Below are positions 31,901 to 52,954 of a stretch of 64,000 nt of DNA, piece after piece. The number at the start of each line of letters is the position of its first letter. The first letter of the stretch is position 1. Source of the stretch: Gibbula magus (Eukaryota; Mollusca; Gastropoda; Trochida; Trochidae); contig OW388300.1 in assembly GCA_936450465.1 (NCBI GenBank), forward strand, positions 52,839,535-52,903,534, given 5' to 3'. A program made the position numbers and the translations under genes. The notes under the pieces are model-generated. The model saw nothing but the letters and a program-made list of their open reading frames with translations, had not been told where the DNA came from and ran no database searches.

Positions 31901-34900
31901 AATTTTGAATTAACAATAAAACTAATATTTGAAACAGCCACTGTGCAAAAATAAGTTCAATGTGTTCACAGACATGTTGCGAATTAGTACATTATATAGT
32001 TCAATCATTCAAGTTGCTGCATAGGATTTAGGATGTCACTGGACTCTGGTGTTTGTTAAAGTAAACACTGTTTGATAATGAGTGCAAGTCTTTAGAGGTA
32101 GTAAATATTCCTGTTTACACACAGATGATTACAAAAACATTATCATGTACTTAAAACACATTTTCACTGACAATTATGATTCAACGATGGAACGTTAGAT
32201 TTAGTTGTTACTGATTTTTAGCTCATCAGGCCTTAACTCATTAACGCCGAGAGACGCGTATAGGCGGGCCGTTAATCTCTCGCTCACAGCGAGAGACGCT
32301 TATAGGGGTCAGCTAACTGCCAGTTCCTCACAGCGAGAGACGTGTATTAGGGGTAGCTGATTAACAGCTTCTCACAGCGAGAGACGCGTTTTAGGGGTGC
32401 TGCCTATTGAATCACAAACACACATAATTTAAAACAATTAAGTATCTATCATGCGAGATGCATGTTTTTTTTAGAGAGTTGATACATATAGAGTTGATGG
32501 CCGGAAGTATTTAAGGTGTTTTGATAGCAGTCAGAAATAGGTATCAAAGGCTTACCTGCAGTAATCGCTTTTTCTATATATCCGTTGAATATTTTGTGTC
32601 TGTTTTACTTTGTGTAAACAAAGGCAATGCCTGAATATGTATTATGCAGTGAGCGTATAGAAAGAATAATTAAAATATTACAATACCTATTGTTTTGCAT
32701 GTTTACATACGATTATGTAACTATTTCAAAGACGCAACGCACATCTAAGCCAATAGAAGAGTGTTGAAGTATTTTCATTTATCTATAACTTCTGTACTAT
32801 AACGCTTTCCTGGGTTAATATTGTTGTCCACAGTAAACATTCATGTCATTGTTGTTATTGATAAGATATACAATGTAGTTTACCTAACTAGTCTGCAAAA
32901 ACCTATCCATTGTACATGGTTACCGATACTTATTGTACTTGTTACATTGTGTGGCATTATTTGCATCTAATTCATTTCAATGATATTTCATGCAAGGGTA
33001 TTGAAATATTCGTATTGATATTCTACACGTACAACAATGATTCGGTAATCCGTTACAGTTATTAGGTACTTTCATGAATATAAAATGCTTTCATTCAAAA
33101 ATTAGCTAAACACGTTGACACAATCTGGTATAATCCAATGCCATTGTCATATATATCAATGGATCCGGTCTCTTGTGATCCGTCGTCAATAAAATTATAG
33201 TAAATACACATATGTTCTTGCAAATAACCATTCAATCAGACTATGGTAACACAATATTTGAGAAACTCAATTGACCATGAAATGTAAATCCCTTGGGGTA
33301 ATTCGGCACTCCTGTTTGATCCGTGACACCTGCTAGAATAAACACCTGCAATAGATAGACAACACGATGCATTGTCACGCCCGTGTAATTGTGTGTATAT
33401 GTCGACATATGTGTATGTTCAAAACAGATTAGAATTTGCGTTACGGCAATTATGCGTGTGAATATTCAATCAATCAAGATCAAGGTAATTTAGCTTGGAA
33501 TAACATACTGGTAATTTCGGCTACATTCTGACGTTTCTCCCGTGACATGTGTTATATGGAGCTTGATTATTGTAGCCACGCCTACGTTAGTTTTATTCAT
33601 GAGAACATACTTGGTAAATCCTTTCAATATTTCTATACACCTTCAGGTTACTAAATACAATCTTACATTATACGTAAGTAACATAATTGTTATAATTCAT
33701 TTCAGGTTGTGAACCTGCAAAATATCAAACGTGCTGTTTAGAGATTTGGGCCACGCCCATCACGAGCCACAGTATCGATTGGTTATTGTTAGATCAATCA
33801 ACTGACCAAGCTGTTCAGCGAAAAATCAAACGTGCTGTTTAGAGATTTTGGCCACACCCATCACGAGCCCTAACATTGACGGATATCTTATACGATTGGT
33901 GAACAAAATTGTTAAATTTCTAGCTATCTTTGCTCATCACAACTGGCTTCTAATCAACTGCTCAATCTCCTCAACAACCTTTGTACATCAACCTATTCAG
34001 CTGTATAAACAACTCATCCTAATTTATTGTAACAACAATGTTTGTATATGTTATCTTCCTCTCCATCACAGTATCACTTGCTTGTCAACGACACGACGTT
34101 AGTATCTATTTCGAAACGTCGCCTCTACAGAATAAAGAAATTTAATATCCAAAAAAGTTTGCTATTGTTTATAAATGTTTCATGCATGGAACTTTTCAGC
34201 CAAACTCAAGTGATAAAAAACTGAGACTTATGAATATGCTACTTGCTAGTTTCGAACTACTAATTGATTTTTATTTTGAATATGACTTATAAAACGTATG
34301 AAAGGATAAATAAGTATTTGATGTCAATAACTTATAATCCCAGCATATTAAGGTTTGATCTGGAAAGGTAAAGCAGAAACAAATATCAGAGATATATGTA
34401 ACGGGATTACATAATTGATAAGACGACAAAGAGTCGTGCACGTGCAGTTATGTAGAATGATGCAATCTATTCACATTTTTGGCTTTCAATGTCATCTTGC
34501 CGTGAATATACAATCAGTTCATTCTACACAATGGACGGAAGCGCTTAAAGATAAATACACGTTTGATAACAAGAAATTCCTCTCGCTGAATCAGAGGTGC
34601 CAGGCTAATTAGCGTGTCGCTGTGGTACGCTAACCCTGAGGCTTGACGGCCAGGCGTTCAGCTGAAGATCGGTGCTCGGCGTTAATGAGTTAAAGGCCAG
34701 ATGGGCTAATGGCATAGGATGACATCCATTTTTTTGTGTGAGATTATAGACTAATTTCTTTATAATTGCATTTATGATTTCTTTTGTTACAGCTTATAAA
34801 GAAACAACCAAGCACTCTAGGAGCTCGTCGGTGGTGAGTATATATTTGTTCACTTGGTCTGATGAGTTCCATCCAAACGAAACCGGTCACCACTCTACAA

Positions 34901-37900
34901 ATACCCGTCTGGTCACGGTGGGGTCCCCCTTTACTCTTCCTATATATGTTCAGCCGTCCGTTGGTGCTTCTGAAATTTGATGTGACTTGAAAATTTTAAT
35001 ATTAACGTTACCTGTGCAGTGCTGCATCTAGCTTGAGTAATTGGTTAATATATTGCACCTGGGCGATGAATCGTACATTGATATTGCCAATTTCTAAAGC
35101 TAATTTTGATACAGTACAGCTAAACAATGTGTGTCAAATTTGCACTAGCGGATCCAGGGGGGGGGGGGGGGGTCCAGGGGGTCCGGACCCCCCCCTTTTC
35201 AAATCCATGTATAAGATTCCCCCCCCACCCCCACTGAGTGGAAATTTTTTTTTTTGGACCCCCCCCTTTCAAAAATCCTGGATCCGCCCTTGAATTTGTG
35301 TGATTGTTATCAAAGCATTTGACCTGACATTGACATAAGACTCAGTGTCGTAGCGAGTGCCAAGAAGTGTAATAATTTCCCCATGGCAATATCATAGCTT
35401 CTGACTGTCCAGGGGTCACTGGACAGTAGCTCAATAGTTCCCGCAAGTTAAGGGTTAAAGTTACATCAGATCATTTTCCTCCATGCTTTGGAACTATAAA
35501 TAATTGTATTGCAGAACTCAGACCAGTGTTCCCGCTGGCTTTTTTAACAGCCAGTCCACGGGACCGGCAGTCATAAAAAATACCGGTCCCCAGCAATATT
35601 AACCAGTCCTAAAATGTTAATGTTTGGAAAAGACTAAGTATATGTTTTTATAAAAACAATAATAAATGTGTGCACTTGTGAACGAACTTCATATTGTTTA
35701 TAAATATCAGTGAAATGCTGGTCACATGACACTAACAGCATGATTGAGTGACGTAAGCAGGTACTAAAAGTTTTGCGACAGTCAAAAGTAAAATCATGCA
35801 TATCAATACAAATACTACAAATCAAATTGTTAGATTGTCAAAGTTCTTGATAAAAAGTAATGTCATATTTAATGTAATTTGATTTTAATTTTATGCTGAT
35901 AATTTCTAAATTGCAATCGTAGTATTCAAGTATCAACACAGTGCTATTTTTAGCCGTCACACGTTTGAAGGATTTGAACATAACATACAATAACTTCTAA
36001 AGCAAAAACTTGTAATGCTTTTCAAATGTTTTACACCTGCAAACATTTCATCAGTGATATTTTTAAACATACCTCAACATATAGTTTTTGGTAACATTGA
36101 GCTGCATGGCTGTCTAAAACTACGACATTGAAAATAGAAAATCTGCATGATCTGCAGACCTCCCGGATAATCCATTTTCAACACAGGGGTGGCAATTGAA
36201 AAAAACTTCAAACAAATTTGATTATTGTTTCTTGGTTTGACAAATCTATCATCTAATTATTTTGTTTATGTTTAGACTAAAATCAATCTTTATTTTCTAT
36301 CAGTAATAATCGTTTAATAAGTTATTGTGCTCTATCCTATTGGAACTATGAAACTCCTGTCACCCCCATACAAAAATAAATCAGTCCCTCTTCTTGGGGA
36401 ATTGCATGGAATTAGGTCAACACCTTGATTGACGTTTCCTGTCTGAAGTTGCCATGCAGCACTGATAAGCATTTGTTTTGATCAATTTATGATTTGTTTT
36501 GGGTGTAATTATAAGATTGACAAATGCTTATTTAGCATACATACCAAATTAAGGACTTATTATTTATATATGCTTTTTTAGGATCATTTCTGCACAAATA
36601 CCCAATTTTGAAATTGCAGGTCCTTGGGACCGACAGTAATGAGAAATACCGGTCCAGCTTCGAAAATTCCGGTAAAATACCGGTATTTACCAGTAAACGG
36701 GAACACTGCTCAGACATTAATTAAAACAAGCTAATTCATAATTGTTCAATTGTTAGATAATTTGTAAAAATGATTTCTTTTTGAAGAACAGGAAAGACAT
36801 TAACCCAAAGTATGATAATCATTAACTGTGATTGTTAATTATTGCTTTTATACTTCTTTAGGTCCAACTATGCACGTCTTTATCTCCGTCACTTCAACGA
36901 GGTAGACCATGAATTCATTGCAAGGTAGGTTTAAAAGGGTTTAAAATTATATATAAAGATATTCTATATAAACATGAAATCTTCATAAGGTTTTCAAGGT
37001 GTGTTTCAATTATTTTATAATATAATAATAATCATTTGTTCAACTCAAATACATGTTCAGTTAAATTTTGAGAAAACAATGAATTTCTTGTACTTAATAT
37101 TGTTCAAACTAACTGCATCAATGGTCTAAACTGATATTATAGTTTGAATTGAAGCATGGTGGTGTAGTGGTCAGTATCCTGGGCTCTCACACTAATGAGT
37201 GCGAATCCTTGAGTCTCTGTGTCACTGGGCAAGGCACTTCATCAACATTGCACTCAGTCCACCTAGCTGTATAGACACATGAAGTAAGGACCTATATGGT
37301 CGCTTTGAGCAATTACTTCAGGGCAATAGTTGTGCACTTTGAGCAATTACTTCAGGGCAATAGTTGTGCACTTTGAGCAATTACCTCAGGGCAATAGTTG
37401 TGCACTTTGAGCAATTACTTCAGGGCAATAGTTGTGCACTTTGAGCAATTACCTCAGGGCAATAGTTGTGCACTTTGAGCAATTACTTCAGGGCAATAGT
37501 TGTGCACTTTGAGCAATTACTTCAGGGCAATAGTTGTGCACTTTGAGCAATTACTTCAGGGCAATAGTTGTGCACTTTGAGCAATTACTTCAGGGCAATA
37601 GTTGTGCACTTTGAGCAATTACTTCAGGGCAATAGTTGTGCACTTTGAGCAATTACTTCAGGGCAATAGTTGTGCACTTTGAGCAATTACTTCAGGGCAA
37701 TAGTTGTGCACTAACAATTACTTCAGGGCAATAGTTGTGCACTTTGAGCAATTACTTCAGGGCAATAGTTGTGCACTTTGAGCAATTACTTCAGGGCAAT
37801 AGTTGTGCACTAACAATTACTTCAGGGCAATAGTTGTGCACTTTGAGCAATTACCTCAGGGCAATAGTTGTGCACTTTGAGCAATTACTTCAGGGCAATA

Positions 37901-40900
37901 GTTGTGCACTTTGAGCAATTACTTCAGGGCAATAGTTGTGCACTTTGAGCAATTACTTCAGGGCAATAGTTGTGCACTTTGAGCAATTACTTCAGGGCAA
38001 TAGTTGTGCACTTTGAGCAATTACTTCAGGGCAATAGTTGTGCACTTTGAGCAATTACTTCAGGGCAATAGTTGTGCACTTTGAGCAATTACTTCAGGGC
38101 AATAGTTGTGCACTTTGAGCAATTACTTCAGGGCAATAGTTGTGCACTTTGAGCAATTACTTCAGGGCAATAGTTGTGCACTTTGAGCAATTACTTCAGG
38201 GCAATAGTTGTGCACTTTGAGCAATTACTTCAGGGCAATAGTTGTGCACTTTGAGCAATTACTTCAGGGCAATAGTTGTGCACTTTGAGCAATTACTTCA
38301 GGGCGATAGTTGTGCACTTTGAGTAATTACTTCAGGGCAATAGTTGTGCACTTTGAGCAATTACCTCAGGGCAATAGTTGTGCACTTTGAGCAATTACTT
38401 CAGGGCAATAGTTGTGCACTTTGAGCAATTATTTCAGGGCAATAGTTGTGCACTTTGAGCAATTACTTCAGGGCGATAGTTGTGCACTTTGAGCAATTAC
38501 TTCAGGGCAATAGTTGTGTACTTTGAGCAATTACCTCAGGGCGATAGTTGTGCACTTTGAGCAATTACTCCAGGGCAATAGTTGTGCACTTTGAGCAATT
38601 ACTTCAGGGCGATAGTTGTGCACTTTGAGTAATTACTTCAGGGCAATAGTTGTGCACTTTGAGCAATTACCTCAGGGCAAAAGTTGTGCACTTTGAGCAA
38701 TTACTTCAGGGCAATAGTTGTGCACTTTGAGCAATTACCTCAGGGCAATAGTTGTGCACTTTGAGCAATTACTTCAGGGCAATAGTTGTGCACTTTGAGC
38801 AATTACTTCAGGGCAATAGTTGTGCACTTTGAGCAATTACTTCAGGGCAATAGTTGTGCACTTTGAGCAATTACTTCAGGGCAATAGTTGTGCACTTTGA
38901 GCAATTACTTCAGGGCGATAGTTGTGCACTTTGAGCAATTACTTCAGGGCGATAGTTGTGCACTTTGAGCAATTACTTCAGGGCAATAGTTGTGCACTTT
39001 GAGCAATTACTTCAGGTCAATAGTTGTGCACTTTGAGCAATTACTTCAGGGCAATAGTTGTGCACTTTGAGCAATTACTTCAGGGCGATAGTTGTGCACT
39101 TTGAGCAATTACTTCAGGGCAATAGTTGTGCACTTTGAGCAATTACTTCAGGGCAATAGTTGTGCACTTTGAGCAATTACTTCAGGGCAATAGTTGTGCA
39201 CTTTGAGCAATTACTTCATGGCAATAGTTGTGCACTTTGAGCAATTACTTCAGGGCAATAGTTGTGCACTTTGAGCAATTACTTCAGGGCAATAGTTGTG
39301 CACTTTGAGCAATTACTTCAGGGCAATAGTTGTGCACTTTGAGTAATTACTTCAGGGCGATTTTTGTGCACTTTGAGCATGCTCATGCATGGATAGTGCT
39401 ATACAAATTGAACAATATCTTTTATTATAAAATTATTTATTGCCCTGTTTATCTGCAGGTTGAACCGAGGATACGGACCTGCCTCCTACTACATGACGAT
39501 ATTCACCACTCCCATTCTTGTCATTCTTGCCAAGTAAGCAAATATCTTTGCTTGTTTGGAGCATATTCTTTAAACATAGAAGTCAAGGCTGATTCCTTGA
39601 TGTGCCTTTTAGGGTTATTCTTACATATGGATTTTTATCTCATGAAGCCTGAAGGGCCAGATGGGCTTATGGCATAAGCTTTGTTCCTTGAACTTTTGAC
39701 AATTTTGACTTCTTCTCCATTCCAATTCTCAATCTAGTGACTTGAGAGCAAATGTATGAGTGTCAGTTGCAACTTTATTAGTCCATTTAGGAACACGCCT
39801 GTTTTAGAAATAAGAAAAACAGACAGTCTTCTGTGGACTTACTTTTATCAATGCAAAATATTATGAATTTGTTGACTGGCAACCTATAATATATGAAACA
39901 TGGATAATACCCTTAAATTTATGTGTTGATCCTCAATCTTGTATTATAAATCTGACTGATGAGCTACTGAGCCAAAAACGCGCTCTCTCTCTCTATACAT
40001 GTGATATAATAATTCATTATGCTGATAATGAGAGAAATATGTTTTCTTGCAGGAATATTGCATTTTTCTCTGGGTCTGTGCTAGCAGTGCTTGCTCTGTT
40101 GACAGTTGTTGATGAGGATGTTCTCAGTGTGGAGCATGTCCTCACTATCATGACCATAGCAGGTACCTCAACGTCTTCATACTTCTCCGATCTCCTTCCT
40201 TTACCTTGTCTATCTTCTCCCTATTTCTCTTTCTTGCTGTGTAGGGGGCAGGATAGCACAGTGGTTAGTGTGTTCGGCTTTGGCTCAAGAGGTCTGTGGT
40301 TCGAATCCCGCCAGGGGCACGGCAACTTTGCCTGCAGTAGAGAACTGTTCTACACAGTATAGTTTGGGTGCAATGCTACACTGATTCTTTTTCAGAAGGG
40401 ATCCTCCTTGGGGTACATATAGCATAAAAATCCTTATTTTTAACTTGATGACAGATTGTAACTTAATTTTTATAAATAACAGTAAAAATAAGTTCAAAAA
40501 ACACAAAATAAGTGTTTTCCGAACGTGTGACCACCCTGTGTAGAGCCCCATCCCGGTGCAAACCAAGGGACGTAACTCTAATCTCACCACTTATCAATCT
40601 GTCATTGACCAGACAAGACGTGTTTTTTGTTTGAGAGACCTTTTGACTTGAGTTCGCTATTTCTGACGAAAATGGACAAGACTAAGAATACTGTATGTGT
40701 GGTAACCCCTTTTTATTCGTAGAGGCGAATGTTTAGGTTACTTATATGGTTTTTGTCGCGTTGTAACTTCGTTTTTCAATTCGCACGTGCTTCGAATTGA
40801 ACGAGTAATGGCGGATGGAAAACGCTCAAAATGGCGGATCTCAAACAAAATGCAATGTGTTAGTACTTTGCTATTCTTGTATTGAGATTTGTTTGTTTTG

Positions 40901-43900
40901 AAGGTTCTTTATCGTGCTTCGCATTGTAGGGCAGCACTTTACTGACGAGGATTTCTCCCTGTTTGAATTTTTCATTCTCTTGGTCATCGTCTCAGTCGGC
41001 AAGATGTACTAGGTATATTCATGTTTTATTTCTTTCAGTTGCTTACTATTTATTACTTGCCTAGTGCTTAGTTATTATAGTATCGCCTCTGCGTTTTGTT
41101 TGTATGATGCACTTTTATGAAACATAAACATTGCACTTACACACATGCATTCCCCTAACATTCTGTGTTTGACTTGCAGTCATTCACTGAATGTACGGGG
41201 TGTAAGGCCCGGTTGCCCCCGGCCGACAAGCACGATCGTTGTTTGGTTTGCCTCGTAGAGGATGAGCATGACGACCAGGCCTGCGATTTGTGTCTCAACT
41301 TCACGCCTAGAGCCAAGAAGGAAAGGGGTATGGATACCCTGTTCTACAGGAACCTCCAGAAGGCGGGCCAGGAACTTAAGGGTTCGATCCCTCCCTCTAA
41401 AGAAAAGAGGAAGGGTGGTAAGGGCAAGGGTAAAGGTAAAAAAAGGGTGAGTTCCTCTCCTATCCCCTCTTCGTCATCAGAGGAGGTGGATATGGAGGTG
41501 GGATCACCTGCTGTGGGGGATACATCACGCCCCCCAGTTCTTTCACCACAAACTCACACACCTGTTCGCACTTCTACTAAAACTAATCCTAATTTGGATG
41601 CAGAGACTATCTCAGCTCTCATCCAGGGGCAAATGACGGGGATAGTGGGGACGATGATGGCGCAGCTCCGTAAGGAGTTGTCTGTCGTCGCCCTGCCTGA
41701 ACCTGATGCTCCAGGGTCGGCCGGCACTAGTGTTGGTAAAGACTCCGGGACCGTTACTGAACCGGGCGCAGGCCCCGGCAAGGTAGCGGTACCCGACGAA
41801 GGCATCCGCGAGACTGCTCCGGCTCTGCCTCGTACTCAGGTAAACAAAGCCCCCTCGTCGGTGCAAGGCACTCCGGTACCGAGCACGTCGAGGGGCACCG
41901 GTAACCCCAAGGGTAAGGGCGCCGGCGCTTCGGCGTCGGTGCAGTCGCTGCCTCGTGGGCCGGCTCCGGTTGGGGAACGAGCACCGGTGGGTGGCACCGG
42001 GTTTCGCATCCCTCTCAAACGGGCTGTCCGTGATTGGTCTCTAGACACCGCGTCGCTATTGAGTGGCTCCGGTGACGGGGATCGGTCAGAGGATGGCTCC
42101 GATTTGTCCGAGGAGGATGAGGAATCCGGTCGTTCAGTATCGCTCGCTGAGCTTCTGAGGGAGACGCGGGATCGCATAGCGATCGCTATCCCTCAGACGC
42201 TTGTTCCCGTCCCGGAGCAGGTCACCGAGGAATTCCGTCTTCCGGGGGAGGCTTTCGCTCTCAGCAAGCCTCCGGCGACAAGGCTCCGCATAATTGATAG
42301 CTTGTTGGTTTAGGCGATCAATCCTCTCCTATCTGGTTCCTGTACGAAGGCTGATCTGCCTGAACTAAATAAGAGGTACCAGTTGGGGGAGGAGGGTCTC
42401 TTCGATCTTCCGGTTATCGACGAATGCGTCCTAACTTCTGTCACCCTGTCTAGCGCTCAGGCGCAGCCTTCTCTAGGCAAGCAGGGCCGGCGACTGCCTC
42501 CATTTCCGGTGCAAGCTGCCATGTTCAAGGCCGAGTTCCGTGCCCATGAGGACACGTTCAGGAACGGAGCCCAACAACTTAAGGTGGCGGTGCACGGGGC
42601 CTACCTTGCTGCTATGCAGGCTAAGGACCAGGCAGAGATGCAGGAACTGGGCACTAAGGTGACCACGTTCCAGAAGCAGCTGGCAGAAGTTTCTAGCTAT
42701 CTGGCCCGGGACTCAATTCGGAGTGCCGCGAGCCAGATAATGGGCGCAGTTATGGGGATGCGCCGGCTGTGGCTGTCGACGTCGAAGTACTCACAGTCCA
42801 CACGCCTCACACTGCAGAACCTGCCTTTCAGGTTGGGGTCCATCCTCTTCCCTGGATCGCAGGCTGTAGTTAAGGAAGCCGCCGAGCAAAAGGTTGCCTT
42901 CGAGGACTCTAAGGTGCTCCTCGAGGACCCTGCTCCGCAAGAAAAGCGAGCGCGGCCTTCCCCCCTTGATGGTGCGAGCCAGGGGGGGGTGCGAGCCAGG
43001 CTTCTTGGAACGCTCCTATGGGTAACAAGAAGAAGTACAAGGGGAAGGGAAAGAAAGGGCACTTCCGTGGGGGCCAAAAGGGCTAGCGGAATTTTCGGAA
43101 CCGAGGCAAGCAAAACAAGCAAACCTAGGTTCTCCGAAGCCCGTGTCACCACCCAAAAGTCCAGCAGCTCGAATGCTGCCGGAGACGGGGGTACACTGTC
43201 TTTCCAGAGATCTTCCAGTGGGGGGCAGACTATCTCACTTCGTCTCAGAATGGGAGAAAGTCACCTCGAATACCTGGGTCCTGTCCACACTCAGGGAGGG
43301 CCACTTACCACTTTGGAAGTACGACCCACCGACTTTCTTCGGGATACGGCACACGAAGGTGCCCGAGTTGCCCGAGAAGGCGGAAGTCCTTCGTGCCGAG
43401 GTGCAGGCTTTGCTAGACAAAGCAGCCATCGAGGTGGTACCACAGGGTCAGGAATTGAGCGGTTACTGTTCAACCTACTTCCTGGTACCCAAGAAGGACG
43501 GAGGGTTCAGACCTATCCTCAATTTGAAGTATCTCAATCGCAGTCTTCAGGTTCCAACGTTCAAGATGGAAACCCTGAGGACGGTGATAGCATCAGTAGA
43601 GAGGGGGGATTGGCTGTCGTCAATAGACCTCAAGGATGCTTATCTGCATGTTCCAATGCACCCCGACTTCAAGGAGTTTCTTCGGTTCTCCTTCGACGGG
43701 ACGTGCTACCAGTTCCGGGTGTTACCCTTCGGCATTTCGACTGCTCCGAGGGTATTCACCAAGCTGATGTTGGTACCGGCACAGGCCGCCAGGTCGCAGG
43801 GCAGGTGTTGTCACCCGTACCTAGACGACTGGCTGATCAGAGCCTTGTCTCAAGAACTAAATCAGGAGGCCACCCAGCAGGTGTTAGACATCTTGCTCAA

Positions 43901-46900
43901 GCTGGGTTGGATCATCAACCTGAAGAAGTCAGACATCGCCCCCAGGCAGGACCTGGTCTTTCTGGGCGCAAGGTTCGATACGGCCTCCGGTTCTGTATCC
44001 CTGGCCCCGGACAGGGTGTCCAGGGTGATCGGGGCAGTCCACTTGTTCCTTCAGTCGCCCACCCACACAGCCAGGACTTGGCTGCAGTTGTTGGGTCATA
44101 TGGCGGCGACAGTGGACGTGGTTTGGAGAGCCCCCTGTAGAATGAGACCTGTTCAGCAAGCGCTGGCACGAATGTGGTCACACTCGGACAGCTTCGAGAA
44201 GGTTCTGACCACACCGGGTTGGGTGCTAGAGCACCTTCGGTGGTGGGTCTCCGAAAGCAACCTTCTCAAGGGTCTATCGTTAGAGCCTCCAAAGCCTTCG
44301 GTCATAGTCCAGACAGACGCTTCCCTATCAGGCTGGGGGGGAGTCCTGGACGACCAGACAGCCTCGGGCCTTTGGTCGCAGGAGGAGTCGAAATTGCGCA
44401 TCAACGTGCTGGAGCTCAGAGCAGTTCGACGTGTGTTCGAGTGCTTCAAGGAGCGGATCAGGGGGCTTGTCGTGCGTCTAGAAATGGACAACCAGACAGC
44501 CCTATCCTACATTCTGAAACAGTGTCTCCATCTCTCCTTCAGGAGTCGTGGCAGTTCCTACTGTGGTGCGACCAGTTCAGCATTCAGGTGGTTCCTGTTT
44601 ATCTCCCGGGAGTGGACAACGTCCGTGCGGACGCCTTGTCTCGGCGCATCCTAACACCTCACGAGTGGATGCTCGACCGGGGGATATTCGGAACTATCTC
44701 CCTGTTGTTCGGGTCGTTCCAGGTGGATCTGTTTGCGTCAGGGATGACGAATCAGATACCTGTGTTCTGCTCAAGAATACCAGATCCAAGGGCTCTAGCC
44801 AGAGACGCCTTCGTGATCGACTGGTCGGACAGAGTACTGTGGGCGTTCCCTCGGGTACCTCTGATCCCCAGGGTTCTTTCTCAGTTGATCAATCAACCAG
44901 CTCGCCTCCTAGTGCTTGTGGCGCCACTTTGGACGGCTCAGAGCTGGTTCCCGTCCGTTCTCAGGTTTCTCGTGCAGCCTCCTGTACTGTTACCCTCGAG
45001 ACGAGACATACTATTTCAGGAAGGGGCACCACACCCGAATCCCAGGATTCAGTGGGTGGCTTGGCCACTGTCCAGAATCGCCTCCAGGAGAGCGGTATTC
45101 CTGCACGAGTTGCAGACACAATACTGGCTTCGAGGAGGGATTCGACAAACCTTCAATATGAAGATCGATGGGCCTGTTATGCGCGCTGGTGTGGCGATAG
45201 AGGGCTTCTCGATCCCTTTTCTACAGATCTAGTCACTGTTTTGGAGTTCCTCCAGTCCAGGTTAGATGCTGGTTTAGCCGCATCGACCGTCAGGGGATAC
45301 TCTACGGCTATTTCTGCTTTCCACATACCGGTGGACGGTGCTCTTTTGGGATCGCATCCACTGGTACAGCGTTTCCTAGCAGGTGTGGACAGAATACGTC
45401 CGGTTGTCCGGCGTATCAGCCCTACCTGGGACCTTTCTATTGTTTTAGATTGGCTCTCAGGTCCGGGGTTCAGAGATTTGAATTCACTGTCACTACAGCT
45501 TTTGACGTGGAAGACCGCCTTTTTGGTGGCTCTGGCGTCGGGCAGGCGGGTAGGCGATATTCATGCGATGTCTGCTGATCCTGAACTGACTGTCTTTCAT
45601 AGAGACAGGGTCAGTATCAGGCTGCCCGACAGCTATCGTCCCAAGGTCGACCACTCGTTCCATGTGACGGCTCCTATCGAACTGCCGACTCTTATGCAGC
45701 CGGCCTCTTCGGGGTCCACTGGGAACCAGGCGCACATTTTGGATGTGTGCAAGGTTCTTAAGATATATATCAAACGTACCAGGGCTATCCGTAAAGATCA
45801 GCAACTTTTCTGTTGTTATGGAGGTAGCAAGCCTTTTTTGCCGGCATCGAAGCAGTCAATATCCAGGTGGATAATGTCTGCAATTGTCATGGGCTACGTT
45901 CACAAGGGCTTAGAAGCCCCAGGTCAGTTGAAAGCTCACTCGGTTAGAGCGGTTGCGACGTCTAAGGCGTTCGCTGCGGCTCTGCCCATCGAGGAGATCT
46001 GCTCCGCCGCTATCTGGAGCCGGCCGAGCACGTTCATTCGACATTACCAACTAGACAGGCACTCTAGGGAGCGCGCTCGGTTTGGTCAGTTGGTTCTCTC
46101 CGGTGGGCAGAGTTGAAACTCTCTAGCTGATTGAGCTTTCGAGTTACTTGTTGTTGTTACAAGTTATGTTCAGTTTGGTTCAGTTCAGTTGCTGTTTGAA
46201 AGCTAACTAACTAACAATTGTTCATTTTTAATAACCAGTTATGTCACTGTTTTGGGCATTTTTTATCCCTTACAGCAGGTGTCCCTAGGTCACTGCCTTG
46301 TTTGGGAAGTACTTCCTCCTATTATTCCCCAATAGTCTTTTTGGAAAAGAAGAAGGGGGGGGGGGGGGGGGGGGGATTTGGCCTGGATAACGGTAAATTA
46401 GGCTGGTTAGCCAATTTGGTTAGTCCCCAAGGGATCACCCATCCTCAGCCCTCGGCGCGGGAGGTCACGTGATCTGGTAAGTGTGACACCTTTCTTGGAT
46501 TGAGTAGAGCACTTTTAAGGGGTATTTAGTGTACAGACAGAATCCACATCCTAAGTCTTCTTTGGGAGTCTGCCTTATGCTATATGTACCCCAAGGAGGA
46601 TCCCTTCTGAAAAAGAATCGAACCAACCTGCAGAGGTTGCAGATTCTTTGAAGGGATCCTCCTTGGGGTACGGCCACCCACCTCCCCTTATTCTGTCTGA
46701 CTGGGTTAGATTGATAAGTGGTGAGATTAGAGTTACGTCCCTTGGTTTGCACCGGGATGGGGCTCTACACAGGGTGGTCACACGTTCGGAAAACACTTAT
46801 TTTGTGTTTTTTGAACTTATTTTTACTGTTATTTATAAAAATTAAGTTACAATCTGTCATCAAGTTAAAAATAAGGATTTTTATGCTATATGTACCCCAA

Positions 46901-49900
46901 GGAGGATCCCTTCAAAGAATCTGCAACCTCTGCAGGTTGGTTCGAATTTCAGCATAGTACCACCCATGGTTCGCTGGTTCCAGCACTTGCTTGCAGGTTT
47001 CACCGCAATACACAGTCACATGGTGTTGCAGCCTTTCTAGCTGCCATGATACAAGTAAAAGTAGCGTTGAACGCCAACTCGCCTTACCTCTTGCTGTGTT
47101 ATCCAGTTTGTCTCCCCTCCTTCACATCTATTGTTATTTTAAGATTTTAAAATTTCATTACCCATCTGCCAAAAATAAGGATGTGGCAGTGTACAATTTA
47201 AAGAGGTGGACCCCTTTAATGGCTATAATCAAATGTATAATGCAAAACTGTTTGTCTTATCCTATCAGCTTTAAAACAAGCCCTAAAGGCCCGGCTGTTT
47301 CCTGCCCATCTTTTCTTCTATTGGTCTCCCCTCCTCCCAGTCATTTCTCGCTCTCCTCTTTGAAATCCTTTTACTCTAGTTGAAATATAATAATTTTGCA
47401 ATATCTGTATTGCAGGTCTTATTGTGACAGTGTGCAGTGGACTTATCCCTGACGAAGTAAGAACAAAACCTTTTTTTTTACGATTGTATATATTATAACA
47501 CAAAATACGCTCCATTGTCAGAAGAGATTTAAAATGTTTTTTCACTTATAATGGGAGTGGTGACCTATTGCTCAACGTTCTGTTCCTGTCTGATTGAGAG
47601 GCGACGTCCCCACCTTTGTAGAAATGAGCTTCATTTGTCCGTCATGCATTGAAGCATGCTTCTCATTGAGCGGGATATTGAAATGGGCTCTGTCCATCTG
47701 GAGCAACACTCATAAACCATAAGACATAACTCGATGAAACTTGGTATAAGGAACAATCATCATGTGTAGTTGTGTCTTTTGGTCATTTCAAATTCTTCAC
47801 ATTTGTATTCTTCGCTGTTTCCAAGGAAACATAAATTGAATATTCGTTTCTGGAGCAGAATGTTGTGCATATCTATGTCTAATATATAACAGGTATCAGG
47901 CATGTGGATGTGCCATGGAAACAAAAACTTTCTTTTCGCTAATCTGGATAATTTCAACATATAAGTTTTCAATCTTAAATGATATGACATCTAATCCATG
48001 AGGAACTTCAGAAAAGTTCTCTCCTGGCAAACATCATTCAAAGAAAGAGATTATATTAGTAGACAGTTAAAGTACAAATGAGATGCTTGTTGCAGCATGC
48101 AGTGTACTCCCCGGAGCGCCTCATGAAGAACGTGCTGGCCCACATCCACTACATGCCCAGTCACTGGAACGGTAATGCACACACCTACAAGGTTCGAGAT
48201 GAATTCGCACTACTTTTCCAGTATAAAGCTGTAAGTAACAATTAGTTTTCATTCATTCATAGGGAAAATATCATAAATGGTAGTGTCTTTATGTATGTTT
48301 CGGAGTCCAATTGGAATGTCTTAAGAACTGAAAGGCCTGATAGGAATATGGCATGGTGTCTGGCATCTGGCATCTGGCATCTGGCCATCTTGCATCCAAA
48401 AAAGGATATTCTGAAATAAATTCATCCCTTCCTTCTATTAGAGTTATGGCCCTTGACTTAGAGCGCTCGGCTTTCCTAAATCTGACTGACAGTACCTGTG
48501 TTGTGAAATCAACTCCTCTCACAGTTTTTTATCAATCTTTCTGAAACTTTTACACATGCTTTGGATATTCATCGGTGATAGGCATGTGGAATGAATCAGA
48601 GTAATATTAGTAATAGACTTAGAGCGCTTGACTTTCCTATTTTAAAGACTGTGAGTTAAACTTTAACCCAGTTTGGTTCCAACTTTTTAACTATGTATTA
48701 CTTGAGGAAATATTTAGACCTTCACCCTTAGGTAGTAAATCATTCACATCCTGGTTTGAGTCCAGGAGTTAATGGTTGTATGTGTTTATAACTGTGTTGC
48801 AGATGTACTTGATAGAAGAGCTGCTCAGCCCTATAGTGACACCCTTCATTCTCTGCTTCTGTCTCCGCAAGAAAACACTTGAGATTGTCGACTTTTTCCG
48901 CAACTTCACCGTTGAAGTTGTTGGGGTTGGTGATGTCTGCTCTTTTGCACAAATGGATATTCGGAAACACGGAAACCCCAAAGTGAGATATTTGTTAATT
49001 CTAAAATCTGTACTTAGTATTGACAATTTGTTACTCTGAGAAACAATTTGTAGCCCATTTGGTCTTTCGTGTTAAGACACGGACATGTCATTCATCTGTC
49101 TGTCTGTCCATCCATCCGTAAGCTGTTCACATTTTTAACTCTTTTTCAAGAAAAAATTTCTCTAGAAAGTTTAAATCATGTTTACAAACTCCTTGTCCAA
49201 TGAAAATTGTAAATTGTAATTATTGTGATTTAGTGGAGGCTGAAACTAAATACCTAGTGGAAACTTTCAACCGTTACCTGTCTAATCTGGCATCAACTTT
49301 TTGTTCTTTTGTTCCGACATTTTACTACAGTAATTTGATTATTCAAAACCTGCAGAATCAAAAGCCCTAGAAAGCTGAAGTCTTATACCGACAGTTTACA
49401 TATTTCAGTGGGTGGCAGAAACAGAGACAGAAGCCGACAAACACCAACAGGCAGAGGGAGGCAAGACAGAGCTGAGTCTTATGCACTTTCATGTAAGTAC
49501 TTTTCAGCACAGACTGTGAAAGACAGAACTGAGTCTTATGCACTTTTCAGCACAGACTGTGAAAGACAGAGCTGAGTCTTATGCACTTTTAAGCACAGAC
49601 TGTGAAAGACAGAGCTGAGTCTTATGCACTTTTCAGCACAGACTGTGAAAGACAGAACTGAGTCTTATGCACTTTTCAGCACAGACTGTGAAAGACAGAG
49701 CTGAGTCTTATGCACTTTCATGTAAGTACTTTTCAGCACAGACTGTGAAAGACAGAACAGAGTCTTATGCACTTCCATGTAAGTACTTTTCAGCACAGAC
49801 TGTTAAAGACAGAGCTGAGTCTTATGCATTTCCAGTACAGTTGTCCAATAAATAAATATACCTAGTACCAAGAAACTTTCTAGTGGATAACTTTTGTAGT

Positions 49901-52900
49901 GTGAATGTAGAACTATAGAATGTGAGTTAACTGATTGTTGACTTTGACATAATCTGAAAAAATCAACAATGATGTTGAACAGCAGAAAATCTATGCTTAT
50001 TTTCACTGTCATTTCGATTTCTCCTCAATTTAACGCGCACCACTGAACTCCGCTGTACTGCACTATGATGTAGCCTGTTTTATTACTCAATCGTGGTGAG
50101 ATCACTCATTAGATAACAATGACTTGCTTACACACATGTGTGATACCATAGCTTGCTGCCGTAACGTCATAATCGGCTCGTGACGTCATAGTCGTTTTTG
50201 GTTGACATCACAATGTTAGCCACGTGACTGAAATAGCTGGTGACCTTTTTGCAAATGAACGTCACTAAAACGATTTTCTTGCAATTCAGTGCTATTTACA
50301 TCATTGAGTAATAAATAAAACACTAAACAATGTCCCGTTTGATAACATGTCTATGAAACTTGTGAATGGAATCGGTATTTAACTCCCTTTCGCTCATTAA
50401 AATACCAAACCATTCACTCGTTTTATAAACATGTTATCAAACGGGACATCGTTTAGTGTTCTAAATGTATTAATGAATACGGCATAATAACAAATTTAAA
50501 TTGGTTCCAATGGCAAACTTTATTTGAAGACATCCATTTCCTGTGAAGAGGCAGGATGGAAACGTTGATATCTTTATTTTCAATTTGCGTCACATTAATT
50601 TGTATTATTTGACACAATTATCATTCTTCTATATTTTCCAGCTAACTAACCCGGAGTGGAAACTTCCAACCAACTGCAGTGTTTTTGTTAATACTATTAA
50701 AGGCCAAGGTAAGAATTCATTCTTTGTTTGCCTTGATGTCAGCTTCTCTACCAGCATCCCTATCCAAACAATTAGAGAAACCCCTCATTACCTTCAAAAC
50801 TGAATTGAAATATCAGAGTCGCAGACCGTATAAAACAAAAATTCAAATGACTTAGCATTGGCATAGAAATTTCAAACTTTCAGTCTAACATCGTTTGTAA
50901 AAGGGAGAGAGTGCAGATTGGTATGTCTATGGGTGTGATGTTTGTTGAGGGTGATGTAGCAGGGTAACAGGATTTGGTTTGATGGAGGGGTGATGTGGAG
51001 TGTGATGTATGTTGTGTATATTTCAGCACAAAAGGACCTGGTGTCCCTGAGTGTGATGTATGTTGTGTATTTTTCAGCACAAAAGGACCTGGTGTCCCTG
51101 AGTGTGATGTATGTTGTGTATATTTCAGCACAAAAGGACCTGGTGTCCCTGAGTGTGATGTATGTTGTGTATGTTTCAGCACAAAAGGACCTGGTGTCCC
51201 GGAGTGTGATGTATGTTGTGTATGTTTCAGCACAAAAGGACCTGGTGTCCCTGAGTGTGATGTATGTTGTGTATATTTCAGCACAAAAGGACCTGGTGTC
51301 CCTGAGTGTGATGTATGTTGTGTATATTTCAGCACAAAAGGACCTGGTGTCCCTGAGTGTGATGTATGTTGTGTATGTTTCAGCACAAAAGGACCTGGTG
51401 TCCCTGAGTGTGATGTATGTTGTGTATATTTCAGCACAAAAGGACCTGGTGTCCCTGAGTGTGATGTATGTTGTGTATATTTCAGCACAAAAGGACCTGG
51501 TGTCCCTGAGTGTGATGTATGTTGTGTATGTTTCAGCACAAAAGGACCTGGTGTCCCGGAGTGTGATGTATGTTGTGTATGTTTCAGCACAAAAGGACCT
51601 GGTGTCCCTGAGTGTGATGTATGTTGTGTATTTTTCAGCACAAAAGGACCTGGTGTCCCTGAGTGTGATGTATGTTGTGTATATTTCAGCACAAAAGGAC
51701 CTGGTGTCCCTGAGTGTGATGTATGTTGTGTATATTTCAGCACAAAAGGACCCGGTGTCCCTGAGTGTGATGTATGTTGTGTATATTTCAGCACAAAAGG
51801 ACCTGGTGTCCCTGAGTGTGATGTATGTTGTGTATATTTCAGCACAAAAGGACCTGGTGTCCCTGAGTGTGATGTATGTTGTGTATGTTTCAGCACAAAA
51901 GGACCTGGTGTCCCTGAGTGTGATGTATGTTGTGTATATTTCAGCACAAAAGGACCTGGTGTCCCTGAGTGTGATGTATGTTGTGTATATTTCAGCACAA
52001 AAGGACCTGGTGTCCCTGAGTGTGATGTATGTTGTGTATGTTTCAGCACAAAAGGACCTGGTGTCCCTGAGTGTGATGTATGTTGTGTATATTTCAGCAC
52101 AAAAGGACCTGGTGTCCCTGAGTGTGATGTATGTTGTGTATATTTCAGCACAAAAGGACCTGGTGTCCCTGAGTGTGATGTATGTTGTGTATATTTCAGC
52201 ACAAAAGGACCTGGTGTCCCTGAGTGTGATGCAGCAGGAGAACCCAGCCTTCACCTCACTCTACAGCTCCATGCCTAGCCTCGGTACGGGTATCGGATAT
52301 GGGGTCAGTACATTGCTTCCATTATCATAGTACATATAATATTCCATAAGGTACAAAGATACAAGCCCCACAAATAATTAACATGAATAAGAAAATATTT
52401 CTTATTTTGAAACTTAGTGTCTAAAAAAGATTGGTTCATTTGCTATTCTTACAACCCATGCATGATTGGGTATGTTGATGTTGCAGTTCAGTAGCATGAC
52501 GGCGAGTGTTGCTACCCAGAGTGTGACCAGTCCACAGCAAGGCGCTGCCTCTCATATCCCTCAGTCAACCCAGGCCAGACTACGGGGTGCAGTCTCCAGC
52601 ATAGATGCTCCATTCTTTTCCTCAAGTCATGGCAGTTTGCAGGGATCAGTAGACATTCTAAGCAGTCTTCAAGTGACAAGCCCATCCAACCGTCTTATTG
52701 ACGAGGGCACCCGAGAATTAATGGCTGCTGATATGAGTTTCAGTGCTTTGTATATGCATGAGATGAGAAATAGACGTAACCGACATGTAGTAGATAGCAG
52801 TGACGACATGCGATCCCGGTTTGGTAGACAGGACAGTAATACTGCACACACCTCACCTCACACTCCCTCTATGCCAGAGATAGAGGAGCAGCCTGTGGAG

Positions 52901-52954
52901 GAGGAGATAGACACAAGTGCTGTTGGTGAGAACAAGCTTCACAAGTCCTGCTGA
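25947..52954 (+). CDS. ATG9: Autophagy-related protein 9 (ATG9), 20 coding exons
   Basis: Coding exons: 25947-26067, 26469-26577, 27180-27335, 27839-27974, 28428-28530, 29670-29769, 30123-30172, 30352-30436, 31779-31878, 34793-34833, 36862-36924, 39459-39533, 40053-40162, 47416-47456, 48096-48230, 48803-48982, 49409-49492, 50642-50708, 52200-52303 and 52487-52954 (2328 nt, 775 residues, phases all consistent). The N-terminus keeps a YxxL sorting motif (YQAL, residues 8-11) like the human YQRL. Hydrophobic segments lie near residues 75-95, 130-150, 295-320 and 375-405, with a re-entrant pair after 475. Signature blocks include ENLDEFFNRVY, ARLYLRHFNEVDHEF, AHIHYMPSHWNGNAH and DFFRNFTVEVVGVGDVCSF. 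ATG9 is a trimeric phospholipid scramblase on Golgi/endosome vesicles that supplies membrane to the growing autophagosome. The acceptor of exon 52200 is one of 24 tandem copies. A GGTGAG donor at 52925 may replace the listed stop. A SINE touches the first acceptor. Confidence 0.93.
26744..26897. mobile_element. 154-bp MITE, copy 2, in an ATG9 intron
   Basis: Same family and length as 16159-16312 (CAGGGATCGACACTCGC start, CCCCTG end). It is flanked by AAGAT at 26739-26743 and 26898-26902. Confidence 0.75.
28577..28668. repeat. Hairpin inverted repeat in an ATG9 intron
   Basis: Arms TTTCGAAGCTATCTTTGCGC...AGTCGTAAGT and ACTTATGACT...GACAGCTTCGAAAA pair over about 35 bp with a short loop. MITE-like; no target duplication identified. 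Confidence 0.6.
29935..30027. repeat. Hairpin inverted repeat in an ATG9 intron
   Basis: CATTCTCTTCCCACAGAGGT at the left pairs with ACCTCTGTGGGAAGAGAATG at the right; an inner TTCAGAT/ATCTGAA pair extends the stem. Non-coding. Confidence 0.7.
30484..31705 (+). repeat. Dispersed repeat family A, long copy split by a MITE
   Basis: Starts CTCATTAAGCCTGAAAGGCC, then GGCGTCC/CGTCCGTC words. It continues with several internal repeats of TTCTAAATTGTAGATTTGGT and GACCCCA..CCCAAATA, and ends with CTGATGAGCTACAGAGC. Positions 30842-31286 are a later insertion. Non-coding, in the intron between ATG9 exons 30436 and 31779. Confidence 0.7.
30842..31286. mobile_element. 445-bp fold-back element with 10-bp target duplication, nested in repeat A
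   Basis: Ends CAGTCTGATTAAAAT and ATTTTAATCAGACTG are perfect inverted repeats; the similarity of the arms extends about 85 bp (both contain GCATCTACCGGGATACGAAC). Direct repeats CCCCATGACC lie at 30832-30841 and 31287-31296. They match the normal repeat-A text CCCCATGACCCC, so the empty site can be reconstructed. A 10-bp duplication suggests a Mutator-like origin. No transposase. Confidence 0.82.
32233..34693. mobile_element. 2.46-kb non-autonomous TTAA-flanked DNA transposon
   Basis: Bounded by TTAA at 32233-32236 and 34690-34693, with perfect 15-bp inverted ends CTCATTAACGCCGAG. The outside flanks (..CTCATCAGGCC and AGGCCAGATGGGC..) rejoin into an intact family-A repeat with a single TTAA, which proves insertion. 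TTAA duplication is typical of piggyBac and Kolobok transposons. The left end carries three to four copies of CAGCGAGAGACG; the interior has a 45-bp direct duplication (33724-33768 and 33826-33868). No transposase ORF is seen, so it would depend on an enzyme supplied elsewhere. Confidence 0.85.
35146..35291. repeat. G/C-homopolymer hairpin element
   Basis: Inverted ends CTAGCGGATCCAGG / CCTGGATCCGCCCTTG enclose G- and C-homopolymer runs (G16, then blocks of C). It resembles a common invertebrate MITE type. The flanks share AATTTG, a possible target duplication. Confidence 0.6.
35524..36708. mobile_element. 1.2-kb non-autonomous hAT-like element
   Basis: Inverted ends CAGTGTTCCCG and CGGGAACACTG. 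Direct repeats CTCAGAC at 35517-35523 and 36709-36715 (7 bp exact; 8 bp with one mismatch). Subterminal palindromes around ATACCGGTCC occur at both ends. The CAGTG terminus and 8-bp-type duplication fit hAT transposons. No transposase ORF. Confidence 0.75.
37154..39405 (+). mobile_element. tRNA-like SINE (family S2) expanded by an internal minisatellite
   Basis: Starts GCATGGTGGTGTAGTGGTCA (A-box-like), then a degenerate B box (GTGCGAATCC) and CTGGGCAAGGCACTTCATCA. The 3' part, CTTTGAGCATGCTCATGCAT followed by GGATAGTGCTATACA, lies at 39371-39405. The element is flanked by AATTGAA at 37147-37153 and 39406-39412. Nearly all the sequence between the two parts is the 34-bp tandem array. Confidence 0.75.
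37302..39379. repeat. 34-bp minisatellite, about 60 copies
   Basis: Unit ACTTTGAGCAATTACTTCAG followed by GGCAATAGTTGTGC. Variants are CTCAGG/TTCAGG, GCGATAG/GCAATAG and two copies shortened to GCACTAACAATTAC. It sits inside SINE S2 and ends 80 bases before an ATG9 exon. Confidence 0.95.
39640..39985 (+). repeat. Dispersed repeat family A, degenerate copy
   Basis: CTCATGAAGCCTGAAGGGCC, AGATGGGCTTATGGCAT and, at the far end, CTGATGAGCTACTGAGCC. Non-coding, in an ATG9 intron. Confidence 0.6.
40243..40384 (+). mobile_element. SINE S1, 5' half (interrupted by DIRS element)
   Basis: AGGGGGCAGGATAGCACAGT...GGTTCGAATCCCGCC (A and B boxes), then ...GCAATGCTACACTGA. The rest of the SINE resumes at 46944. 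The target duplication TCTTGCTGTGT is found at 40232-40242 and, beyond the other half, at 47089-47099. Confidence 0.88.
40385..40600 (+). repeat. DIRS left terminal inverted repeat
   Basis: Begins (GA)TTCTTTTTCAGAAGGGATCC and includes GGGACGTAACTCTAATCTCA near its inner end. It is the reverse complement of 46709-46919 with very few differences. Confidence 0.9.
41165..43086 (+). pseudogene. DIRS Gag-like protein, interrupted by a stop and a frameshift
   Basis: Open from 41165 to a TAG at 42311-42313, then open again in the same frame from 42314. Residues near the N-terminus show a cysteine/histidine block (CTGCKARLPPADKHDRC..C..H) usual in DIRS Gag proteins. It is followed by a basic K/G-rich stretch and a long S/P/T-rich low-complexity region. 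After the TAG, text such as AEFRAHEDTFRNGAQQLK continues the same protein. Near a G8 run at about 42981-42988 the frame seems to shift, because a basic tail (KKKYKGKGKKGHFRGG) ending at TAG 43084-43086 lies in another frame. There is no ATG at the 5' end: the frame opens after a TTGACTTGCAG acceptor-like site (41179), and a short upstream exon may supply the start. Confidence 0.7.
43143..45232 (+). pseudogene. DIRS reverse transcriptase-RNase H (and DIRS-specific C-terminal domain), frameshifted
   Basis: From 43143 to about 44525 one frame encodes the reverse transcriptase: FLVPKKDGGFRPILNLKYLN, DWLSSIDLKDAYLHVPMHP, FGISTAPRVFTK and the catalytic YLDDW (about 43818). The RNase H part has QTDASLSGWGGVL (about 44311), an ELRAV glutamate and EMDNQTALSYILKQ. 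After KQ the frame changes. The continuation SPSLLQESWQFLLWCDQ, YLPGVDNVRADALSRR (last RNase H aspartate) and LLVLVAPLWTAQSWFP lies in the frame that ends at 45232. A small non-multiple-of-three deletion at about 44520-44530 explains this. The long overlapping frames nearby are shadows. Confidence 0.85.
44548..46116 (+). CDS. DIRS tyrosine recombinase
   Basis: The recombinase domain is readable from about 45030 to the stop at 46114-46116. It shows the phage-integrase-type catalytic set: arginine in LASGRRVGDIHAMS (about 45535), HSVR (about 45937), a tryptophan in AAIWSRPSTF and the nucleophile tyrosine in IRHYQLD (about 46044). The enzyme integrates the circular cDNA without target duplication. 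The first ~160 codons overlap the RNase H region in another frame, so the true start is uncertain and probably lies in the downstream half of this overlap. The catalytic region has no visible lesion. Confidence 0.85.
   Translation: MAVPTVVRPVQHSGGSCLSPGSGQRPCGRLVSAHPNTSRVDARPGDIRNYLPVVRVVPGGSVCVRDDESDTCVLLKNTRSKGSSQRRLRDRLVGQSTVGVPSGTSDPQGSFSVDQSTSSPPSACGATLDGSELVPVRSQVSRAASCTVTLETRHTISGRGTTPESQDSVGGLATVQNRLQESGIPARVADTILASRRDSTNLQYEDRWACYARWCGDRGLLDPFSTDLVTVLEFLQSRLDAGLAASTVRGYSTAISAFHIPVDGALLGSHPLVQRFLAGVDRIRPVVRRISPTWDLSIVLDWLSGPGFRDLNSLSLQLLTWKTAFLVALASGRRVGDIHAMSADPELTVFHRDRVSIRLPDSYRPKVDHSFHVTAPIELPTLMQPASSGSTGNQAHILDVCKVLKIYIKRTRAIRKDQQLFCCYGGSKPFLPASKQSISRWIMSAIVMGYVHKGLEAPGQLKAHSVRAVATSKAFAAALPIEEICSAAIWSRPSTFIRHYQLDRHSRERARFGQLVLSGGQS
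46351..46373. repeat. G homopolymer run in DIRS 3' region
   Basis: About 22 consecutive G between the recombinase stop and the internal complementary region; a likely sequencing and assembly weak point. Confidence 0.85.
46575..46671 (+). repeat. DIRS internal complementary region
   Basis: Contains the reverse complements of both element ends back to back: ACCCCAAGGAGGATCCCTTC and GAAAAAGAATC from the left end, then GAACCAACCTGCAGAGGTTG and GATTCTTTGAAGGGATCC from the right end. It is thought to template completion of the circular DNA intermediate. Confidence 0.88.
46709..46943 (-). repeat. DIRS right terminal inverted repeat
   Basis: Reverse complement of 40385-40600 plus about 25 bases of extension ending GCAGGTTGGTTC. 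Confidence 0.9.
46944..47088 (+). mobile_element. SINE S1, 3' half
   Basis: Resumes at GAATTTCAGCATAGTACCAC, exactly where the 5' half stops (..CTACACTGA), and ends GCGTTGAACGCCAACTC. The target duplication TCTTGCTGTGT follows. Confidence 0.88.
49046..49400 (+). repeat. Dispersed repeat family A, degenerate copy
   Basis: Has the CATTTGGTCTTTCGTGTTAA-type head, GTCTGTCTGTCCATCCATCC and ATTGTAAATTGTAATTATTG. Non-coding, in the intron before ATG9 exon 49409. Confidence 0.45.
49463..49845 (+). repeat. Eight-copy array made from an ATG9 exon end and its splice donor
   Basis: The last ~28 bases of ATG9 exon 49409-49492 (AAGACAGAGCTGAGTCTTAT GCACTTTCAT), the donor GTAAGT and the following intron bases are repeated in 43- or 57-bp units. 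Three of the eight copies keep a full CAT|GTAAGT or CAT|GTAAGTAC donor (after 49492, 49721 and 49778). The other copies have lost 14 bases around the donor and read GCACTTTTCAGCAC or a degenerate form. Confidence 0.9.
50322..50462. repeat. Hairpin inverted repeat in an ATG9 intron
   Basis: ACACTAAACAATGTCCCGTT TGATAACATG pairs with CATGTTATCAAACGGGACAT CGTTTAGTGT, with a further GAATGG/CCATTC inner pair. A looser inverted pair (TTTTATTACTCAAT near 50080 and ATTGAGTAATAAATAAAA near 50303) flanks it on the left. Confidence 0.75.
51001..52230 (+). repeat. 24-copy, 51-bp array of an ATG9 splice acceptor and exon start
   Basis: Each unit holds TGTATGTTGTGTATATTTCAG|CACAAAAGG... and runs to GAGTGTGATG. 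The AG|CA acceptor recurs from 51026/51027 to 52199/52200, a distance of 1173 = 23 x 51, so no unit has gained or lost a base. Substitutions are few: ATATTTCAG/ATGTTTCAG/ATTTTTCAG, CCTGAG/CCGGAG, one ACCCGG. Copies group as a trimeric pattern (A, A, G at the variable tract base). The frame is open through all copies in the ATG9 phase, encoding AQKDLVSLSVMYVVYIS (17 residues) per unit. Confidence 0.97.

Follow-up and report, generated by a model that had tools for sequence, protein, structure and literature searches.

A 24-copy minisatellite spanning the junction of intron 18 and exon 19 in ATG9 of the trochid snail Gibbula magus

Array at the intron 18 / exon 19 border

The border between intron 18 and exon 19 of the Gibbula magus ATG9 gene lies within a minisatellite and, because the border falls inside the repeated unit, every copy carries a full splice acceptor. 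Very probably the array is silent, its upstream copies being removed within the intron while the last acceptor serves the main mRNA. The array occurs in a stretch of 64,000 nucleotides (assembly GCA_936450465.1, contig OW388300.1, positions 52,839,535 to 52,903,534 of the forward strand), called the window here; positions refer to the window unless otherwise indicated, and a slash marks a splice border.

50998..52231, + strand: minisatellite of 24 x 51 + 10 bp, defined by Tandem Repeats Finder, motif scan and unit comparison
50998..51007, + strand: GAGTGTGATG in the intron, one of the two copies of a 10-bp direct repeat found at the array's ends
52222..52231, + strand: exonic copy of GAGTGTGATG, coding within L-S-V-M

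A motif scan of the window located 24 sites of the form TTTCAG/CACAAAAGG, with AG ends running from 51026 to 52199, and neighbouring sites are separated by exactly 51 bp in 23 cases out of 23. When an 18-base motif was sought with up to three mismatches, 24 matches were again obtained, whereas 100 shuffles averaged 0.05. Tandem Repeats Finder reports the interval 50998-52231 with a period of 51, 24.2 copies and 98% matches. The 24 copies without an indel noted in an initial, sequence-only reading are thus borne out, as is the 51-bp period, with the copy number read from the assembly alone; the array starts, however, at 50998 and not at 51001, and ends at 52231. That reading also correctly placed the splice junction inside the unit but divided the latter into 33 exonic and 18 intronic bases, where we find 32 and 19: the unit opens with 19 bases of intron origin, which end in the acceptor, and continues with the initial 32 of exon 19. 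The acceptor itself, TTTCAG/CAC, is present in all 24 units.

The units are highly homogeneous. Across the 23 full units, 12 of 1173 letters differ from the consensus, giving a mean pairwise identity of 98.4%, and the variants are confined to positions 13, 22 and 45 of the 51-bp unit. Those in the exon-derived part both affect a leucine, which is replaced by Arg in units 4 and 11 and by Pro in unit 15; these two changes, only two in number, would give no sign of constraint on the upstream copies. Identical units recur most at lags of 7 (8 of 16 comparisons), 10 (6 of 13) and 3 (9 of 20), with 6 of 22 at lag 1 (all raw counts), a pattern that fits the duplication of blocks. The same 10-bp direct repeat is found at both ends of the array, once in the intron and once in the exon, and the composition of 24 x 51 + 10 bp with this bounding repeat suggests slippage or unequal exchange.

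A plausible history would begin with a single-copy ancestor in which two chance copies of GAGTGTGATG, one intronic and the other exonic, lay 51 bp apart. Slippage or unequal exchange between them would have produced the first 51-bp duplication, and later rounds would have copied both single units and blocks of units. In the present gene, exon 18 would be joined to the last acceptor, with the exon starting at 52200, and the 23 upstream copies would leave with the intron. That 51 bp is in frame and free of stops would then be incidental, at most ensuring that no harm comes of an upstream acceptor being used now and then.

Gene model and comparison with relatives

The array was placed in the context of the following gene model.

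25947..52951, + strand: ATG9 coding region, 20-exon model of 775 aa with AG/GT borders and consistent phases
49409..49492, + strand: exon 17, with donor CAT/gtaagt at 49492, colinear with relatives
50642..50708, + strand: exon 18 of the gene model, with donor AAG/gtaaga
52200..52303, + strand: exon 19 from the last acceptor, the proposed authentic exon, with donor GGG/gtcagt
52487..52951, + strand: exon 20, the last coding exon, followed by the stop codon at 52952-52954

The identity of the gene, already recognised from the sequence, is upheld by a match of the exon frame 48773-49033 to Pfam family PF04109 (ATG9) at 1.3e-20 and by a score of 803.9 bits between the joined model and residues 1-717 of human ATG9A (6wr4). 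Haliotis asinina ATG9, the best of 1065 proteins (120 listed), shares 81% identity over 100% of the length, and amphioxus ATG9 (P0034) 52%. Internal exons of the model measure 41-180 nt, and the junction after exon 17 reads ...ELSLMHFH/LTNPEW..., colinear with relatives. All 17 matches reported by a protein search of the genome (1.47 Gb in 140 contigs) lie inside this gene, while the unique flank of the array occurs at one place in the assembly; neither a retrocopy nor a second haplotype of ATG9 was found in the assembly by these protein and flank searches. COX1 of the mitochondrial contig accords with a trochid origin: among the 7999 candidates with the most shared words, it is 99% identical to a gastropod cluster and 98% to Monodonta labio, Trochus sacellum and a Trochidae cluster. 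On these ATG9 and COX1 matches amphioxus, where mirages (see below) are described, was rejected as the source.

At the position of the array the protein from Haliotis asinina (P0001) reads IKEQAQKDVASLSVMQQEN, and is colinear without gaps with the product of the last acceptor. An insert of 17 or more residues at this position is absent in 20 of the 21 relatives aligned; the remaining sequence, from Lottia (P0020), leaves the alignment here and is uninformative. Shorter inserts are seen slightly downstream of the array position in some relatives. A search for an ATG9 protein containing extra units, made with a 274-residue query bearing two added ones, gave a single match (P0121, 37%) which has no insert. 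No listed ATG9 is closer than 81%, so that the species seems to be missing from the protein database and the outcome of this search is neutral.

Reading frame and acceptor strength

From each of the 24 acceptors the frame is open to the end of exon 19. As envisaged in the sequence-only reading, upstream acceptors would thus add n x 17 residues, to a maximum of 391. However, four of the six frames across the array are free of stops, so that openness says little and the ATG9 frame is nothing special. Among six long arrays tested in the window, a stop-free frame occurs only in the ATG9 array and in a 27-bp array at 1-1615, the other four having stops in all six frames. Matches of PF04689 and PF10106 to the open frame of the array fell below the curated cut-offs and were taken as chance.

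Acceptor strength was assessed with a small matrix derived from the gene's 18 remaining acceptors. The 24 acceptors of the array score 10.6 to 11.7, the last of them 10.6; intron 18 also has an AG outside the array, at 50963, which scores 10.1. Since these values are so alike, local sequence shows no preference for the last acceptor, and the matrix itself discriminates poorly. The donor of exon 19, at 6.8, is the second weakest of the 19 in the gene. One candidate branch point deserves mention.

50979..50983, + strand: TTGAT, branch-point-like by consensus match, its A lying 45 nt before the exon start of acceptor 1

Within the 70 nt preceding acceptor 1 no other full YTNAY match is present. 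Acceptor 24, in contrast, has no full YTNAY within 70 nt, CTGAG at 28 nt taking its place. With the best branch-point match preceding acceptor 1, the use of upstream acceptors is possible, and acceptor 1 itself would be preferred if the choice simply fell on the first AG scanned, yielding an exon of 1277 nt. We have weighed these arguments below those from exon length, conservation and the HECT-domain gene described next.

Other junction-spanning arrays

Further arrays overlapping known or presumed splice junctions are present in the same gene and elsewhere in the genome.

49463..49834, + strand: second junction-spanning array, at the tail of ATG9 exon 17, defined by repeat finding and unit comparison
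G000:C2:40714200-40716200, reverse strand: array in a HECT-domain gene (L099), a 93-bp unit over the last presumed acceptor
G000:C10, around 29739939-29740289, reverse strand: array at an ABC-transporter exon (L052), donor side
G000:C10, around 42105387-42105707, reverse strand: array (L051) that begins right at the presumed donor of an ABC transporter

The exon 17 array comprises eight copies of the exon's tail, the authentic one included, at steps of 43 or 57 bp. The donor CAT/gtaagt is kept in three of them, at 49492, 49721 and 49778, and splicing from either of the two later ones would produce an exon, of 313 or 370 nt, that is out of frame and contains stops. In the HECT-domain gene the presumed last acceptor, CTATCTCCAG/ATGGTGATCCAG, lies inside the 93-bp unit, of which 20.7 copies fill a 2001-bp stretch, a minimum copy number since the array runs up to the edge of the stretch. 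The acceptor motif has 18 exact copies, the last of them preceding the HECT match, and translation from each of the 17 upstream ones meets a stop 14 or 22 codons later. The presumed donor GTGCAG/GTAG of L052 is found six times (five further copies) at 105-106 bp, the exon-derived part of the repeat being degenerate, and the unit of L051 repeats CAGGTATGC, with about three exon bases only. If the HECT and ABC-transporter genes work, splicing in this animal bypasses many good copies of junctions.

The frequency of such arrays was surveyed at 60 loci, corresponding to 30 of 122 myosin-head and 30 of 83 ABC-membrane matches; 54 SNF2 matches from the genome search lay outside the survey. Arrays cover 7266 of the 200145 bp in these loci, and one lies within 15 bp of a match edge in two of the 60 matches, where coverage alone suggests, as a rough product, about 4 of 120 edges. 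Extension to 20 stretches containing 29 of 67 HECT matches added L083, with an array over the edge (table read by eye). The resulting total of 3 in 89 includes two clear cases, L052 on the donor side and L083 on the acceptor side, and the marginal L051; the loci are not independent, many of the myosin matches belonging to one cluster, and the edge of a match gives no more than the approximate place of a splice site. As this total is no more than array coverage predicts, no enrichment at exon borders was found among the 89 matches of three domain families, and minisatellites seem to hit junctions about as often as other places.

Comparison with known systems

The sequence-only reading regarded so large an in-frame array as without known precedent. 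In fact, the available text of two papers (PMC3087553, PMC3902484) describes the same kind of structure in amphioxus under the name of mirages, in which an intron-exon boundary, on its 3' or 5' side, is duplicated in tandem in minisatellite fashion, with examples in Adh3, the globins BflGb6 and BflGb9, troponin C and PGBD5. According to the available text of the first, evidence from Adh3 and RT-PCR of the globins suggests that regular splicing goes on undisturbed by mirages, although splice signals in many of the repeats could give alternative transcripts; Adh3 units measure 10-72 bp and those of BflGb6 150-160 bp, the two BflGb6 haplotypes having six and three units (PMC3087553). Repeats of the PGBD5 mirage are described, in the portion available, as imperfect (PMC3902484).

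The ATG9 array likewise has a unit that contains the exon-intron boundary, with the acceptor in 24 of 24 copies, and it combines a unit of minisatellite scale (51 bp) with high identity (98.4%). By its structure, as known here from genomic sequence, it would be classed as a mirage. It differs from the amphioxus examples in its host, a trochid snail, and in the number of its copies, 24, in each of which the acceptor is intact and the phase exact. We found no junction-spanning minisatellite with as many copies, nor one in a mollusc, in a literature search that was light on subscription journals and partly aimed at molluscs. The ATG9 array extends mirages, found by us in the literature only from amphioxus, to a mollusc, and suggests that genomes rich in minisatellites generate them as a by-product.

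At NAGNAG tandem acceptors, an in-frame choice is made between neighbouring acceptors at a spacing of 3. Such a choice is conceivable between neighbouring ATG9 acceptors too, but their spacing is 51 bp, the start of the exon is repeated with them, there are 24 sites and their origin lies in a minisatellite; pairs of AGs 3 nt apart, the hallmark of NAGNAG sites, are not what the array contains.

In human, internal tandem repeats at exon-intron boundaries within segmental duplications can, according to the part of the report available, yield alternative splicing and new introns; they average four 30-bp units and occur in primate-specific paralogs (PMC2812944). The ATG9 array resembles them in overlapping a splice border, unlike them belonging to a gene found at one locus only. 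Among vetigastropod genes, a TSSK1-like gene of Haliotis discus hannai bears a length-variable 27-bp minisatellite, although this lies inside intron 3 and, in the text at hand, no splice junction is described in its unit (PMC6905558).

Choice among the acceptors

Preference for the last acceptor would follow from exon definition, since it is nearest to the donor and only the last few acceptors give an exon of normal length. This account overlaps with a leakier one, in which the last acceptor dominates and the last few of those upstream of it see low-level use, producing isoforms with 17, 34 or 51 additional residues and no or mild effect, the in-frame unit being tolerated and not selected. We consider such leakage possible, though we would not expect it. 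It agrees with the intactness and like scores of all 24 acceptors and with the open frame; acceptors 23 and 22 would give exons of 155 and 206 nt, near the internal range of 41-180 nt; and human tandem repeats at exon-intron boundaries can yield alternative splicing, according to the available text of PMC2812944. The failure of the 274-residue query to reveal an isoform has little weight against it, given that the species seems to be missing from the database. Appreciable use of upstream acceptors, which would create a family of ATG9 proteins carrying anywhere from 0 to 23 additional units of 17 residues, with a range of lengths that differs among individuals according to the copy number of the minisatellite, is improbable.

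More demanding readings fare less well. Were the first acceptor (51027) used by way of the upstream branch point, exon 19 would measure 1277 nt and encode 391 extra residues; TTGAT 45 nt before this acceptor, with nothing as good before acceptor 24, speaks for it. Yet an internal exon of that size contrasts with 41-180 nt elsewhere in the gene, the 20 informative relatives of the 21 aligned have no insert of such size, and the replacements in the exon-derived part appear unconstrained, so this reading is quite unlikely. That one or two real units were blown up by mis-assembly is very unlikely: the count of 24 comes from the assembly alone, but variants are ordered between units, the array sits in a 76-Mb contig with its unique flank at one place only, and long arrays are common in the window. 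Finally, the sequence-only reading saw a possible length-tunable splice array, with regulated choice among the 24 acceptors providing ATG9 with n x 17 extra residues. The gene and its tandem, in-frame 3' splice sites were correctly recognised, and perfect phase without an indel, a stop-free ATG9 frame in one of only two such arrays among six, and the best branch-point match upstream of acceptor 1 all accord with the idea. Tuning itself gained no positive support: the ATG9 frame is one of four open frames, the absence of indels is expected at 12 mismatches in 1173 letters, and the exon-derived part includes the L to R and L to P variants. It is further opposed by the match of the last-acceptor product to relatives and by non-productive arrays in the same gene (exon 17) and elsewhere in the genome (the stop-bearing HECT array), and we regard it as very unlikely.

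If, as we favour, splicing uses no acceptor but the last, the cell correctly picks one of 24 near-identical 3' splice sites, and in the HECT-domain counterpart, on the same supposition, one of about 21. The arrays would then be natural experiments on how exon definition, branch point and transcription order govern acceptor choice. ATG9, where the array is in frame, and the HECT-domain gene, where it bears stops, would moreover form a useful pair, since leakage could appear in the former as a longer protein and in the latter as mRNA that is truncated or decayed.

Other features of the window

Repeats and mobile sequences are found at several further places in the window. Intron 11 of ATG9 contains a 34-bp minisatellite of 61 copies (37303-39379) which ends 79 bp before exon 12. 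Intron 13 harbours a retroelement (41159-46113), which we take to be possibly DIRS-like, with a reverse transcriptase (PF00078) in the frame 43026-44648 and, downstream, a long frame (44518-46110) without a Pfam match. About 50 bp past the ATG9 stop codon lies a 32-bp minisatellite of 23.6 copies at 83% (53007-53759) and, further downstream, a 44-bp array with a 132-bp higher-order period (59312-61915). The 27-bp minisatellite at the window edge (1-1744) has 60 copies and a stop-free frame of 581 codons on the + strand. A neighbouring gene on the same strand as ATG9, at 9100-10239, encodes a chondroitin N-acetylgalactosaminyltransferase, matching PF05679 at 1.3e-100.
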